From Powellomyces hirtus (Eukaryota; Chytridiomycota; Chytridiomycetes; Spizellomycetales; Powellomycetaceae): a DNA stretch of 64,000 bases. The number at the start of each line of letters is the position of its first letter. Within the stretch, counting starts at the first letter, position 1. Positions 6,607 through 62,916 of this stretch are shown here, piece after piece. Under the pieces are notes generated by a model that did not search any database, was not told the origin of the DNA, and saw nothing but the letters and a program-made list of their open reading frames with translations. A program made the position numbers and the translations under genes. The stretch lies in contig JAHLKG010000005.1 in assembly GCA_025526995.1 (NCBI GenBank), positions 1,364,001 to 1,428,000 of the forward strand, written 5' to 3'.

Positions 6607-8165
6607 ATGGCAACCAACAATGGTATGTGCTAAGAGACTAGGCAGCTGGCCACCCTGCTAGAGCGTCGTTGTTGACATCTACACCTATACAGTCAAAATC
6701 GTGGCAGTGGAAAAGCCACTACCGTTCCACTTCAGCTTAGCTGCTGGGGCTATCGCTGGGGTGACAGAGATCCTCATGATGTATCCGCTCGATGTTGTCA
6801 AAACTCGATTCCAGCTGTCGGTTGGAAATGCCCAATCGTCCATTGTTGGGTCGTTTAAGGAAATCATCAAAACGGAGGGGTACGTATTTGCTCATGCAGA
6901 TCATCATGGAGTTACAGAGTGCTAACTTCTCTTGGGATTGCATAGACCGAAGGCGCTTTACAGAGGTAAACAGAAGGTTGCACGGCCCCTTTTTCTCGGC
7001 AGTTGAAACTGACATGCTTTGAATCCAGGAATATTACCGCCAATTTTGGTTGAAGCCCCCAAACGTGCCATCAAATTCGGCGCAAACGAGCAATACCGGA
7101 CGTTGTACAAGGAAAAGTTCGGTTTGCCAGACAGCAAGACCCTCGCAGTCGCGACTGGAGTTAGTGCGGGTGCCACCGAAGCGCTGGTGGTTGTTTCCTT
7201 TGATCTGGTAAAGATTCGATTGCAGGACAAGAGAAATGTAAGTTGTACTTGGCACTTTGTATCAACAAAGCTACATCGACTGACTCGCGCGACATTAGGC
7301 TGGAAAATATAAGAACACGTAAGCCTTCACACAATACCAAGAGTCAAAGCCCCCATGCCTTACCATCTCTCTACTGATACAGAATGGACTGTGTATCGAC
7401 CATCATGAGAGAAGAAGGTGTGTGGCATTGAGCAATTGATGATTGTTTGGATATCCCATTCACGTATACTGTCCTCTGCAGGTTTCCGTGGCTTTTTCAA
7501 GGGACTAGAGGCAACCATTCTTCGACATGCACTATGGAATGGTGGATACTTTGGAGTCATCAGCGGAGTGCGCGATGCCTTGCCGGAGCCAGAAACAAAG
7601 GAGGGACTTCTGCTGAAGAATTTTGTATGCGGAAGCATTGGAGGAACCGTCGGCACCATCTTGAACGTGAGTATCGCATTGTCAAAGAACAAGGCGGCCT
7701 GTTGAAACCTTTTTTGCTCACGATATACTATCTATCTTTGCAGACACCATTCGACGTCGGTTAGTTCATTACACTGCATCTACATGTGCGTCTTAGCTGC
7801 AATACTTAAATCTTTGGCTCTATAGTCAAGACACGAGTGCAGTCACAGGCTGTTGGTCCATTCAAATACAACTGGGCGTTCCCAGCCCTGAGCATGATCA
7901 TCCGGGAGGAAGGTGCAGCGGCATTGTATAAAGGTATGTCGTGTCCCTTTGATCTGATGTGTTGAGCCAGGCCAATCAGTCTAATTGAATCTCTTCGTCA
8001 AAGGATTCTTGCCCAAGGTTTTGCGATTGGGACCGGGAGGTGGAATCCTTCTTGTCGTTTACGATTTTGTCACATCGTACATGAGAAAGTAGGTGTCTGA
8101 GTGGGAAAATGGACGCTCATGGAATGGCCGTGATCTGACGCTTTCAATCTAGGCATTTCATGTAA
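6607..8165 (+). CDS. ODC1: Mitochondrial carrier, 2-oxodicarboxylate type
   Basis: SLC25-family inner-membrane carrier, probably exchanging 2-oxoadipate/2-oxoglutarate as in yeast Odc1/Odc2. Eleven exons stay in frame: 6607-6622, 6693-6879, 6946-6965, 7029-7237, 7299-7318, 7383-7417, 7482-7666, 7744-7759, 7826-7933, 8004-8088 and 8153-8165, giving 297 residues, the normal carrier length. Three repeats each show the signature: YPLDVVKTRFQ, SFDLVKIRLQ and TPFDVVKTRVQ. The first lies after helix 1 (LAAGAIAGVTEI). The segment EAPKRAIKFGANEQY is typical of the Odc/SLC25A21 subgroup. Several exons are only 13-20 bases long. The second repeat starts with S rather than P in Px[DE]xx[KR], which is common in this subfamily. 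Substrate assignment is by family resemblance only. Confidence 0.9.
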
Positions 8166-57280: not shown

Positions 57281-60200
57281 ATGCATTGGTCACTAGCAAT
57301 AGCCCTCTCCGTCGTCCTACTAGCAAGTGGGGGTAGAGCTGGTTGTCCTTTTGATAATGGAGCAGCGCAATTCCCTGGAAGCCAGTACCCGTGGCAATAT
57401 GGAACCCTTGATGCCACGCATCCCTCAACCCACAATCTGCATAAGCGCCACCATGAAAAGATCCAGTCTCTTGACGGTTCGGGCAACAATATGGCCCACC
57501 CAGAACTCAATGAGCGACGGTATCTCCGGCAGCATCCCTCCAACTACGCTTCGCCGTCAGATACGGGTATGCAGTAATCCCCATGCGACTTGCGATACAT
57601 GTGAAAGATGGCATTGACGGAGACCACCTTTCCTTTATGGGCCTTGCGTATCTAGTTCCCGGCGTATTCGACCGCCCCAATGCCCGCAACATATCCAACT
57701 CGGTCTTCTCTTTCAATCCCTACATCTACACCGACGCTCTTACCTCGGATTTTCTCCCATTGTGGGGTCTGTTCATGCACAGCGACATGACCTGTCCGCC
57801 GCGGAACGAAAACGAACCATTCCATATCTCCGTTCCGCAAGGAGACACGGTGTTTGATCCTCACAATTCCGGCACACAACTGATCAAACTCTCCCGAGGC
57901 GCATACGTCGGAATCACAACCGATCCCCGCACTGGACGGCTCGACAGGGAATACCTCAATGACTGCACTAGCTTCATGGACGCGAGTGGGCTGTATGGAT
58001 ACAATCAAACTGGCGTGTATGATCCGAGAACGTATGAAAACGGACTCTTGAGATCAGTACAGCATCCTGTGCTGGGGGAAGCCCCACCCGTGAAAGACGG
58101 ATTCTTTCAGTGGCCGAGTATTTCGCTCAATCTATCGCCGGTAGGTTGACCAAAGCAAAGCGCTACCAGAATGGCTCTCCCAGGGAATTGGAACTGAAGC
58201 CCCGCATCTCTTCTGCACCCAGCATATGACGGTTCCATATATTCTGCTTCTCCGGGACCACAACCGCCGAGCTCGTCTCATCCGCGGCGAACACCCAGAT
58301 TGGAATGATGAGCAGATTTTTCAGCGAGCTCGCAGACAAGTCATTGCTCTGATCCAGCGCATCACCATGCACTACGTAAGGAGAAAGCATTTGCGACTGC
58401 TTACTCTAACCCCGCAGAATCAGACGTTTACGGGCATTTTTGTTACACATTGCAATTGGACATTTTCTGCAGTACTATAGCATGCGACTTGGAAAGGCAC
58501 CGCCTCCATACACGCGCTACAACTCGAGCGTCAGCACGGCTATAGATCTGGCTTTCAGTAACGTTGCGTTGCGCTACGGACATACGGCTTTGAATTCCAT
58601 GATTTGGCGCATGGATGCAAAGGGGCATCCCAGCACCAAGGGACATCTGGTACTATATACTGGTGGCAATACCGCACTTGCTAAATTGTATATCTTGGTT
58701 CCTGATACCTTGCCTCTTGCTGCTCGCCTTTAGATCTTGGAAGAGTCTTTCCTAGCAAACAACGTCGCCCTTATCCTCGAGGACGGAATAGAAGACATCA
58801 TTCGTGGATTTGCGAGCCAGCCTGAGCAGGCCACGGATGGACATTACGTGCCGGTTGTGAGGAACAAAATTCCACTTGCGCTCCCGCTTGAACATTTTGA
58901 TCTGCTTGCAATCACTATACAAAGGTAATCAATGAACCAGAGAAACCCCAGCCTCGCATGAGGTAGAGATGCCGATGCGATACTTGCTCTGACACAGATA
59001 TATGGATGGAGTAGGGGACGCGATTTGGGCCTCGCGGATTACAACACGATGCGAGAAGCATACGGACTCGCCAGGATCACGCGGTGGGAAGACGTCGTCC
59101 CGGAAGATGAGAAACAGGTGCTGCGTGCGTTGAAAAAAATGTACCCGGACGTGAACAATGTCGACCCATATCCTGGTATGATATTGCTTGCAGTACCTGC
59201 AGACGTGAGAAATGTGATGCTTTGGGGGTACGATACTGACCACAATGCGCTGTTTGGCTTCACGGTTTTCGTCCAGGTTCCGTTGTGGAGAAACACCTGG
59301 ACGGATCCACTCTCGGGCCCCTCTCCACCGCCATCATCCACGAGCAGCTCATCCGCATGCGGGACGGCGATCGGTTCTGGTACGAGAATGAAGGTGTGCT
59401 GACTCCCGAAGAGCTCGCAGATGTCAAAGTTCACGGGAACTGGGGCAAGCTGGTGATGCTCAACACCAACATCACCGTGTTCCCAGAAAATCCGTTCGCC
59501 GTCGCTGTGCCCGACTATACCCTGGGCACGGAGCTGACCACAAAGGGCACAGCCACGGCCGCCGGGGAGGCCTCCATCACGATCCCGGGTATCCTTAAAC
59601 TCTCGTGGGAAATTGCTGGCTCGAACATCAATTTTGTGGTGGAATCGAACAATGATGGATGGTTTGGGTTTGGATTCGGCAAAGATATGCTGCCGGCAGA
59701 TATATATCTCTTCCGCCACAACACTCCTACCGGCGAATGGATCGTCCAAGACTCGTACAGCAAAGATCTTGCTGTCCCGCAACCCGACACAAATTACGGC
59801 GGCACCAATGACATCAAATCTTTCTTGTCCATCACGTCCAAGACGTATCTGCACAGCTTCAAGTTCTCGCGGGCGCTCAACACGGGTGACCCGCACGACG
59901 TCGCCATCACCAATATGGATATGCCTATGATCTTTGCCACGGGCGCCGGCGTCGAGCCCGGCTATCATGGGGCTTTGAACCGTGCGCATGCTTCGGTGAA
60001 CTTCCATACTGGGACTGTGACGGTTGCGGACGGGGCTGCGCATGGCTTGTTTAAACTGAATGTCTTCCATGGGTGAGCTCAACAGTCTTTTGTGGCAAAC
60101 GCGCTTCTCTCTTTTGGCATTCACTAACAAGGCGCAATGGGCAGAGTGACAATGTACATCGGATTTGGTTTCGTCTACCCCGGTAAGTCAAGCCGCGGCG

Positions 60201-62775
60201 CTGTAATGGCCCATCTGCAAATTCAATGCTCACAATCTCTTCCCGGGCCAATCCACCCAAAGTTGGAATCTACATTGCTCGATATTGGAAGGACAGCGGC
60301 AGCTGGGTTTCGTACCATCAGATGCTCATGGGGGCAGTAACCACCGAGGTGGGCGACTTCCAACCCGGCACTTCTCATCCGCTCCACCAACCATGCTGAC
60401 TCGTGCTCTATATAGATTGTTTTCTCCGCGTTACTGGGCGTCATTGGCGAGTTTGGCCCAATCCACCGGCGTCACTCGATTCTCGGTCTGTTCCTCACTG
60501 GTCTGATCATCATCGTGACTTGGCTTGGACGCTTCAGCGGCTATTGGGACACAGAATTTTCCGTGAAATATAACAAATACATTCGACTGGCTCACTGGAC
60601 CCTGGGCTACTCGGCCTACTTTACAGGGCTTTTCCAAGGGTATATGGGCGTAGTGGATATTACCGAAGGGGGCAATGTGGACTGTAAGAGTTGTGACACA
60701 AGGCTTTCGCCACAAATCGTCACAGTTTCTTGGTTTCTTACTCTTTCTTCTCCAACTCCAGGGCTGAAATGGTTCTATATTCCGAGTGTGTTGGCCACAC
60801 CTTTGACACTGATTATGGTCGCCTGGTGGCACAACTTTTCAGCCAGAAAGACAGACGGAAAGAGCACCTGCAAGCAGAGTGACAACTTACCAAAGTTTAA
60901 CTGGCACGACGTGCATGAGCGGGTCGAAACGGGCGCTAAATTGCTGGTTATTAAGGGCATTGTTTGTAAGTACCTGGATTATTTCGTTTCACAGCGGTCC
61001 TGTTTGGCACTGCTGAATTGTGGGTCATCATCCATCTAGATGACGCGGCACCCTTCATGCTCAAACACCCCGGCGGCGCCAAGATCCTGGGCAGCGTAGT
61101 CGGCATGGACGCAACCAACGCATTCTACGGAATCAAGACGCGTAAATCAAAAAACAAACAAGATGCGCAGAACCAAGCGGCCGTTCCCGTCTGGCATCCG
61201 CACTCCCGATTAGCCGAGTCCTTACTCTCCAAACTCGCGGTAGGAGCCCTCGCCGACGACGATGACAATGACGGCGACAATCAAGGTCATTACGGGCTCG
61301 TCAAAAGCGCCTCCATGGCCACCGACGGAGACCTCGAGTCCACGACTGATGCGCCGACGCGTAAAGCCCAGCGCCTGGCCCAATTACGCGCCATCTCGCG
61401 CGACCACCTCGAAAACAAAACTTTCAAACCCGAGTCCCTCACCACGCAACTCTCAGAACTCTCGTACCAGAACGTAGAACTCAACACACGCACGCTCGCG
61501 TCATCCACCGAATCGAAACGCCCCACGTACCGTATCTCGTTCAAACTCAACTCGGCCACGCCTGAAGATAAAAAGAAAAAGGAGGCCGCGCAAGATAAAG
61601 CTAATGCCGCCACCGTGCCTGAAGTGTTCCTTTTCCCCGGCCAATGCGTGATCCTGCAATTCATCACTGACCAGGGCGAAGTCGTCACGCGGCAATACAC
61701 CCCCTACAAATCACGCAATGTCGGCACCATTGATCTGTACGTCAAAATGGCGAACGGACTGATGACGCGCCATTTAAAGGAATGCCAAAGCATCCGTATC
61801 CGAGGCCCCTTTTCCCACGCCCCCGAGGCCGTCAACACGGAACGCAAAAACGGATGTTGGGATGCCATCGGTATGATCTGTGGCGGGTCCGGACTGACCC
61901 CAATGCTGCTGATCATCGACTACCATCTTCGCTTTGCGGCCCGAGGCTCCCCCAACGGCCGGCCAGCCCTCCAGATGTCGTTACTGAATATCAACCATTC
62001 CGATGTTGACATGTTTGCCCAGCAGGATCTTGAAGCGGCCGAGCAGCGATCCCACGGCACGTTATCGGTCCTCAACCTCTGTCACGAAGTCAAATATCCC
62101 GCGAAGTTCAAGGGCCAACAGGGACGTGTCACCGCTGAGCTTTTGAAAAAAGTTCTGCCTCCGCCCAGTATCGCCCCGAATGCCGGCAATGCTGGTGGTG
62201 CCCCAACCCCAGCCATGAATGCAAGCATGCCGGGGTACAACCGCATCCAATCACTCCAAATGGCCGCGGGAAGCGAAGGGTTGAAAGGCATGAATCGCAA
62301 GCGGGCCGTGTCGCCGGGCAGCGCTACTGCTGGGGACGGCGGATTTGCGGGCTTCAAAACCAGCAGTGCAATGCAGGTCAAGCAAACTCCGTCGCAGCAG
62401 CAGGTCGCCGGTAAACGCAGTTCGGCACCCTATGCGGAGCTCAACCAGAGTGTCAGTCAGCTGTTTGTGGAAGTGCCCACTACTACCCCGAGAACGACGA
62501 CGGCGGTCGAAAGACGCACCTCGTCTACAGGGCGCTACAATCCGTTACCCCCTAGCGATTCGGACGAGAGCGCTGAGGACCCTGAGCGTCAGAAAGCCAT
62601 GTCGATCTTTGTGTGCGGGTATGAACATGATAACATCCTCCCGTTCTATTTGTTGTCGCCATCTGATCTTCTCCCGATGATTTTGAACCCTAACAGCCCG
62701 CCACCGATGCAAGCTGCTGTTCTCGAGCTACTCCTCGCTCTGGGCTACAATCCAGACTCCATCGTCATCTTGTAG
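57281..62775 (+). CDS. Haem peroxidase-DOMON-cytochrome b561-cytochrome b5-FAD/NAD reductase fusion
   Basis: Twelve exons stay in frame: 57281-57566, 57623-58140, 58223-58375, 58473-58649, 58734-58924, 59015-59175, 59277-60072, 60145-60182, 60263-60348, 60416-60683, 60762-60965, 61040-62775; 1537 residues. Signal peptide: MHWSLAIALSVVLLASGGRA. Animal-type peroxidase, about 60-555: NARNISNSVF, SFMDASGLYG, proximal His in RYGHTALN, IQRGRDLGLADYNTMREAYG, RMRDGDRFWYENE. DOMON, about 595-745: NDGWFGFGFGKDM ... GYHGALNRAH. Cytochrome b561, about 755-920, with histidines in NVFHG, SYHQM, IHRRHSILG and LAHWTLGYS. Cytochrome b5, about 935-1030: KGIVYDAAPFMLKHPGG. Reductase, about 1118-1537: RQYTPYKS for FAD, CGGSGLTPM for NAD. 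Peroxidase and DOMON share one exon, b561 and b5 share another, and b5 and reductase a third, so the fusion does not rest on splice guesses alone. The likely role is electron transfer from cytosolic NAD(P)H to extracellular haems (inference). Confidence 0.88.
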
Positions 62776-62897: not shown

Positions 62898-62916
62898 GGG
62901 GGGGGGGGGGGGGGGG
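62898..62916. repeat. Poly-G homopolymer, 19 bases
   Basis: Uninterrupted run of 19 guanines on the plus strand in the spacer between the fusion gene and the convergent membrane-protein gene. Confidence 0.9.

Follow-up and report, generated by a model that had tools for sequence, protein, structure and literature searches.

Does a single gene in the chytrid Powellomyces hirtus join a heme peroxidase-like domain to a transmembrane electron chain, and if so, what would such a protein do? The locus that raises this question lies at positions 57281-62775 of the window, the whole 64,000-nucleotide stretch that was analyzed (GenBank assembly GCA_025526995.1, contig JAHLKG010000005.1, positions 1,364,001 to 1,428,000 of the forward strand). 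An earlier sequence-only reading had proposed one fusion protein with the order peroxidase, DOMON, cytochrome b561, cytochrome b5 and FAD/NAD reductase, and Pfam matches together with alignment bear this order out. We consider it probable, at roughly 0.6, that the gene encodes one membrane protein serving to export electrons at the expense of NAD(P)H: they would leave the flavin reductase, travel through b5, b561 and DOMON and end on an acceptor outside the cell. Its peroxidase domain is of an altered kind, here called type B.

If this holds, fungi own a second, independently built answer to DUOX, in which b561, and not a NOX core, connects a peroxidase-type domain to cytosolic NAD(P)H. The same genome also carries two sister branches of the family, one retaining the catalytic pocket and the other an altered pocket that has become fixed, which makes the role of an exporter-borne peroxidase domain testable. 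That role was left open for DUOX in the available text of one source (PMC4420034). Judged from sequence, the architecture and the fixed, shifted histidine would probably surprise specialists in heme peroxidases or fungal redox biology.

Gene Model

The following features define the gene and its boundaries:
57281-62775, + strand: whole gene, 13 exons, 1500-residue product (splice model; last 738 residues identical to deposited P0014)
59277-60072, + strand: exon 7, carrying the end of the peroxidase domain, the entire DOMON and the first b561 haem histidine (H749) without interruption (reading of the sequence and model)
60226-60228, + strand: ATG at which the deposited, truncated P0014 starts, within intron 8 of the fusion model (comparison with P0014)
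62619-62696, + strand: intron 12, 78 nucleotides, GT-AG, in frame without a stop, missed by the sequence-only reading (splice model, P0014 match)

The corrected model, built by hand and with a script, comprises 13 exons and 4503 nucleotides, with the ATG at 57281 and the stop at 62775, and all 12 introns are of the GT-AG type and 67-101 nucleotides in size. The sequence-only reading had given 12 exons and 4614 coding nucleotides in frame. Its start and stop hold, but the exon count and length had to be revised, as intron 1 was re-placed and intron 12 added. Intron 1 now spans 57567-57655; with this placement the product lines up with P0005 without gaps on inspection by eye, and a spliced alignment to P0001 agrees. 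The alternative 57567-57607 was dropped because its 41 nucleotides are out of line with the other introns. Intron 12 is invisible as a frame break because its length is a multiple of three and it is stop-free. With it excised, the CGPPPM motif reappears and NAD_binding_1 scores 40 instead of 30.7 bits; the model that left it in (1526 residues) was dropped after comparison with P0001. Some homologue and domain searches used this earlier model, which has 26 intron-derived residues near the C-terminus; the Pfam searches were redone on the final model. An independent check is provided by the deposited P. hirtus protein DFJ77DRAFT_456334 (P0014), the final 738 residues of which are identical to the model, including the splice of intron 12. 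A scripted spliced alignment of the window to P0001 gave other ends for exons 6, 7, and 11 as well as a spurious 7-nucleotide exon, and the hand-built model was kept at these exons because it is gap-free in the alignment.

Deposited proteins raise the alternative that two genes are present, a secreted peroxidase-DOMON protein and a separate b561-b5-reductase, split at about 60145-60262. Both P0014 and P0019 (814 residues, from the paralogous locus C16, ending inside b561) are split in this way. However, such splits fall within the haem core. The first b561 haem histidine is missing from P0014, whose first 12 residues are intron 8 sequence, and that histidine is already encoded in exon 7, which bridges the peroxidase and DOMON domains uninterrupted, as the sequence-only reading had noted, and reaches H749 besides. 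Full-length deposited models also exist in many species and, as P0021, in the same genome, and the TRINITY-named open reading frame P0038 contains the whole order. Two genes are thus very improbable.

Domains and Cofactor Ligands

The single protein of the corrected model is divided as follows:
57281-57343, + strand: predicted signal peptide, hydrophobic residues 4-22 (hydropathy)
57464-59491, + strand: peroxidase-fold domain PF03098 (An_peroxidase), residues 62-556, exons 1-7 (Pfam E 2.7e-100)
59594-59944, + strand: DOMON, residues 591-707 (Pfam E 5.6e-15)
60041-60820, + strand: cytochrome b561 core, about residues 740-900, boundaries approximate (alignment; weak PF03188 match)
60902-61251, + strand: cytochrome b5 (Cyt-b5), residues 928-1019, with His958 and His1003 (Pfam E 3.8e-11, alignment)
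61624-61818, + strand: FAD_binding_6, residues 1144-1208, with R-x-Y-T-P from Arg1166 (Pfam E 5.2e-07)
61873-62772, + strand: NAD_binding_1 region, with the Pfam stretch at 1227-1322, a long low-complexity insert, CGPPPM from Cys1474 and the C-terminal end (Pfam E 7e-10)

Among the Pfam families anticipated by the sequence-only reading, An_peroxidase, DOMON, Cyt-b5, FAD_binding_6 and NAD_binding_1 all score above their cut-offs on the 1500-residue model, but Cytochrom_B561 (PF03188) does not; its match is in the right place (749-870) but weak, at 12.9 bits (cut-off 23) and E 0.13. When the P. hirtus genome was searched with PF03188 in six frames, two matches came back, neither of them in the window. 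Because the family misses the window in this genome-wide search and stays below its cut-off in the model, the b561 assignment rests on alignment and on relatives. The four b561 haem ligands, at 749, 781, 811, and 851, are histidine in 48/50, 48/50, 46/47, and 42/44 of the rows that have a letter there (58-row alignment). PF03188 exceeds its cut-off in the relatives P0024, P0058, P0062 and P0025 and in the product of locus C1 (L018), and falls below it in P0038, P0052, P0005, P0007, P0021 and P0023; among the type B relatives scanned (P0005, P0007, P0025), P0025 alone is above it.

From DOMON through b5, all eight haem-ligand positions are intact. The candidate ligands in DOMON are Met622 and His715, the latter slightly past the Pfam stretch. 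The C-terminal part has the features of a b5-reductase-type flavoprotein, namely the two b5 haem histidines, RxYTP, GGxGxTP and CGPP, the last three of which we take to be flavin and nucleotide motifs. The predicted structure of P0032, a relative with most of the chain but no called NAD domain, shows five long helices in the b561 region, at a predicted template modeling score (pTM) of 0.51 and with unsure domain packing.

Two Types of Peroxidase Pocket

The peroxidase domain of the window protein has the fold and proximal histidine of the classical heme peroxidases (peroxidase-cyclooxygenase superfamily). The classical distal histidine and catalytic arginine are absent in the alignment, with a serine in the distal column and no arginine in the arginine column. 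Two histidine codons mark the pocket:
57778-57780, + strand: codon of His137, which lies on the distal side but shifted one residue N-terminal of the canonical distal position (alignment)
58581-58583, + strand: codon of His345, the proximal haem histidine (alignment)

The altered pocket is shared by a clade. Counts were made on 48 of 63 alignment rows, comprising 22 type B, 15 type A, five other eukaryote or metagenome and six bacterial rows. The window protein falls within the 22-member type B clade (support 99/99), where a histidine stands one residue ahead of the distal position in all 20 rows with the segment (P0016 and P0004 do not have it), the catalytic arginine is found in none of the 20 rows reaching it (P0016 and P0035 do not) and the proximal histidine is present in 22/22. 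Calcium-site residues are also retained in the type B domain. In the sister branch, type A, the distal histidine is kept in 10 of 11 rows with the segment (P0036, P0033, P0015 and P0037 are without it) and the catalytic arginine in 15/15, with support for type A as a single clade at just 89/93. The type A exception is P0032, with phenylalanine at the distal position. In type B, P0030 has an arginine one residue ahead of the arginine column. The five other eukaryote or metagenome rows have the distal histidine in 4/4 with the segment and the arginine in 4/5. Left out as partial, outgroup or duplicate were 15 rows: P0010, P0011, P0013 (DUOX), P0014, P0017, P0018, P0019 (the L015 locus), P0054, P0056, P0057, P0059, P0060, P0063, P0064 and L016 (the P0021 locus). 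By its residues P0060 would count as type A and P0019 as type B; the pocket of P0059 is unusual. The DUOX row was also kept out of the careful tree for its long branch.

An alignment slip as the source of the shifted histidine was rejected by direct counting from a conserved glycine, which places it at G+4 in the 20 type B rows; in type A the position is G+5 in 10 of the 11 rows with the segment. An acidic residue at G+6 stays in register across the same 20 rows (Asp in 16, Glu in four). This two-branch, conserved pocket pattern appears to be new. Because the distal histidine and catalytic arginine are lost, sequence suggests that the type B domain is unlikely to cleave H2O2 in the manner of a classical peroxidase.

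The pocket bears directly on two alternatives. The sequence-only reading had offered an extracellular peroxidase haem as one destination of the electrons. A classical peroxidase at the end of the wire would fit the fold, the proximal histidine and the catalytic set retained by type A paralogues, but the distal histidine and arginine are missing at their usual columns in the window copy and its clade, which makes this outcome improbable here. The other alternative is that the type B domain has become, as in vertebrate DUOX, a haem-free pseudo-domain that stabilizes or covers the outer face of the exporter. The peroxidase domain of human DUOX1 has no haem-ligand histidine, and no haem was seen in it, according to the available text of PMC7794343; the function of the DUOX domain is called obscure in the part of PMC4420034 that was available. 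However, DUOX is without the proximal histidine (P0013 has a serine), whereas type B retains it in 22/22 rows and the shifted histidine in 20/20, and two invariant histidines are not expected in a decayed pocket. A haem-free cover is therefore unlikely. Since both histidines are invariant, type B, in contrast to human DUOX1, probably still binds haem. On the preferred reading of the protein as an electron exporter, its peroxidase domain would most likely be an altered, haem-binding terminal site that could pass electrons to oxygen, peroxide or a metal.

Occurrence of the Fusion in Other Organisms

The sequence-only reading knew of no enzyme with this full order, yet the order is not unique to the window. 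At least 30 proteins among the 135 homologues listed share it, one of them (P0021) from the same genome; the count is based on precomputed peroxidase, DOMON and b5 domains with one or both of the reductase domains. The homologue searches scored at most 7989-7996 candidates each, and one of them returned 1411 proteins at E <= 1e-30, of which 120 were listed and looked at. The fusion occurs in 19 genera, namely Geranomyces, Thoreauomyces, Powellomyces, Spizellomyces, Quaeritorhiza, Polychytrium, Borealophlyctis, Cladochytrium, Sorochytrium, Obelidium, Chytriomyces, Irineochytrium, Entophlyctis, Rhizoclosmatium, Boothiomyces, Paraphysoderma, Terramyces, Lobulomyces and Nowakowskiella. Lineage look-ups placed Paraphysoderma and Sorochytrium in the Blastocladiomycota and Powellomyces, Thoreauomyces, Quaeritorhiza, Polychytrium and Lobulomyces in the Chytridiomycota; within the latter, P. 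hirtus belongs to the Spizellomycetales. The other 12 are presumably chytrids or blastocladiomycetes as well. The search in other early-diverging fungi that the sequence-only reading had proposed thus recovered the same architecture in chytrid and blastocladiomycete genera. The remaining fusion proteins of the 30 are P0038 and P0052 (EukProt) and P0057 (labeled jgi). P0038, with a label starting 'complet', is matched by all six Pfam families, with b561 at 22.0 bits (cut-off 23); its TRINITY name is that of what we take to be a transcriptome assembler, so that it is presumably a transcriptome-derived open reading frame.

Pfam scans were also run on P0007 and P0021, deposited homologues of the same domain order. 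Deposited homologues (e.g., P0001, P0007, P0012, P0021) carry the names 'hypothetical protein' or 'heme peroxidase'; searches of open-licence PMC full texts yielded no description of the domain order, and the available text of a Rhizoclosmatium paper (PMC12115818) has no match for the term 'peroxidase'. The architecture is new and its parts are known, the order being already deposited with no description found. In the green alga Tetradesmus obliquus, P0062 has the order peroxidase-DOMON-b561 without b5 or reductase and is possibly an intermediate of the fusion.

Paralogues in the P. hirtus Genome

An_peroxidase matches occur at five loci of the P. hirtus genome, and at four, namely the window, C9 (L014), C16 (L015) and C6 (L016), spliced alignment gives the full fusion order. 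The C16 spliced model is poor near the DOMON and contains a stop, which is attributed to a modeling fault because deposited P0019 reads the same stretch stop-free. Among the deposited models found, the full order is present at one of the four loci, as P0021 (C6), a type A copy. At C9, the deposited model P0010 starts downstream of an in-frame TGA (considered below).

Spliced alignments to the fusion gave nothing credible at two further loci, L017 and L018, which were rejected as full fusions. The An_peroxidase locus C21 (L017) aligns poorly to the fusion and, judged by eye, may be of the fungal Ppo/linoleate-dioxygenase type. A sixth locus, C1 (L018:2817-5741, - strand), holds a single 975-residue open reading frame with DOMON-b561-b5-FAD, no peroxidase, and an SH3 domain (PF00018, 2.9e-08) C-terminal to the FAD-binding part. 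DOMON and b5 score just below their cut-offs in this protein, and its NAD part is recognized by motif and eye alone. It is possibly a peroxidase-free cousin of the fusion family. The Ferric_reduct family PF01794 has 10 matches in the genome, nine above cut-off, so the idea that the fusion substitutes for missing NOX-type genes was rejected.

Proposed Electron Path

With every one of the eight haem ligands in place and no break in the flavin or nucleotide motifs, the protein likely serves to carry electrons out of the cell from cytosolic NAD(P)H. Electrons from NAD(P)H would enter the FAD of the reductase, pass to cytochrome b5 and cross the membrane by way of the inner and then the outer b561 haem. 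From there, they would reach the DOMON haem and an acceptor outside the cell. In type A, with its kept catalytic set, the chain would feed a true peroxidase, that is, a self-powered NAD(P)H peroxidase. The sequence-only reading had placed the peroxidase and DOMON domains outside, behind a signal peptide, and the b5 and reductase domains inside. The hydrophobic N-terminus and the five helices of the P0032 model support this arrangement, since a chain that starts with a signal peptide, as predicted here, and crosses the membrane an odd number of times would have its N- and C-termini on different sides. Topology, haem occupancy and flow direction are inferred, the last two from the order of the domains, their ligands and the Arabidopsis protein HYP1. 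In the available text of PMC10784544, HYP1, a DOMON-b561 protein, takes electrons from ascorbate and delivers them on the outer side to ferric and cupric substrates.

Several observations weigh against an exporter of this kind. HYP1 and the b561 proteins cited by its authors use ascorbate, as far as the available text of PMC10784544 goes, and the fusion alone suggests that b5 feeds b561. The PF03188 match to the b561 core is below cut-off, as noted above. In the peroxidase domain, the asparagine that supports the proximal histidine is retained in merely five of 22 type B rows and is a threonine in the window. The deposited annotation of the locus is the shorter P0014 (750 residues, beginning at 60226), and the deposited models at all three full-fusion loci other than C6 are partial (P0014, P0010, P0019), two of them cut within the b561 core; these are probably annotation faults. 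The C9 paralogue has one in-frame TGA (L014:3618) between peroxidase and DOMON in an otherwise open frame.

The same wire could also serve a metalloreductase of the CYBDOM kind, with NAD(P)H in place of ascorbate and the peroxidase domain as a substrate-binding or adhesion module without a redox role. The retained DOMON-b561 haem ligands, the reduction of ferric and cupric substrates by HYP1 (PMC10784544, available text) and the cell-adhesion functions known in peroxinectins (PMC4420034, available text) speak for this possibility. The catalytic residues retained in type A relatives would be odd for a purely adhesive module family-wide, and this version seems unlikely to be right.

Returning to the exporter with an altered terminal domain, its history may tentatively be sketched, in an outline we hold to be rather doubtful. 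In an early chytrid ancestor, the distal histidine would have moved by one residue and the arginine been discarded, and the domain would have come to carry the haem furthest out, perhaps with bis-histidine ligation, on a wire that runs in one chain from NAD(P)H to the outside, making it a powered terminal reductase or cytochrome. The type A sister would be a peroxidase that powers itself and does without an external reductant.

Comparison With Known Systems

The window protein resembles DUOX in its N-terminal peroxidase-fold domain and in its working outline. It differs in having DOMON and b561 together with b5, FAD_binding_6 and NAD_binding_1 instead of a NOX core, and in keeping the proximal histidine that DUOX has lost. 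Pfam finds neither PF01794 nor FAD_binding_8 in the model (NAD_binding_6 is below cut-off at E 0.19) and no EF-hand family up to E 1. Membership in DUOX was rejected on the absence of both NOX core and EF-hand matches, and the earlier view of the protein as an alternative to DUOX is upheld in the sense of a parallel built on b561.

With CYBDOM proteins (Arabidopsis HYP1/CRR), the window protein shares a DOMON adjoining a b561 core, the four haem histidines and the DOMON Met/His pair, but where HYP1 draws on ascorbate (PMC10784544, available text), the window protein fuses b5 and an FAD/NAD reductase inside and a peroxidase outside. Peroxinectin-type and bacterial heme peroxidases (6ERC, 8s6c) have the distal histidine and no fused reductase chain, whereas the window has a serine at that position and the histidine one earlier. 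The structure search covered residues 45-562 of P0049 and barely included the DOMON. The LDS/Ppo enzymes, too, are fusions in fungi that involve the peroxidase-cyclooxygenase superfamily (peroxidase-P450; PMC4420034, available text), but the window protein has other partner domains and a membrane wire, and Pfam finds no P450 family up to E 1 in the model.

Two minor features lie at or near the gene. A 382-residue open frame runs antisense to exon 7 (59039-60187, - strand) and is probably a shadow of codon bias, and a run of 19 G is found shortly 3′ of the gene (62898-62916).

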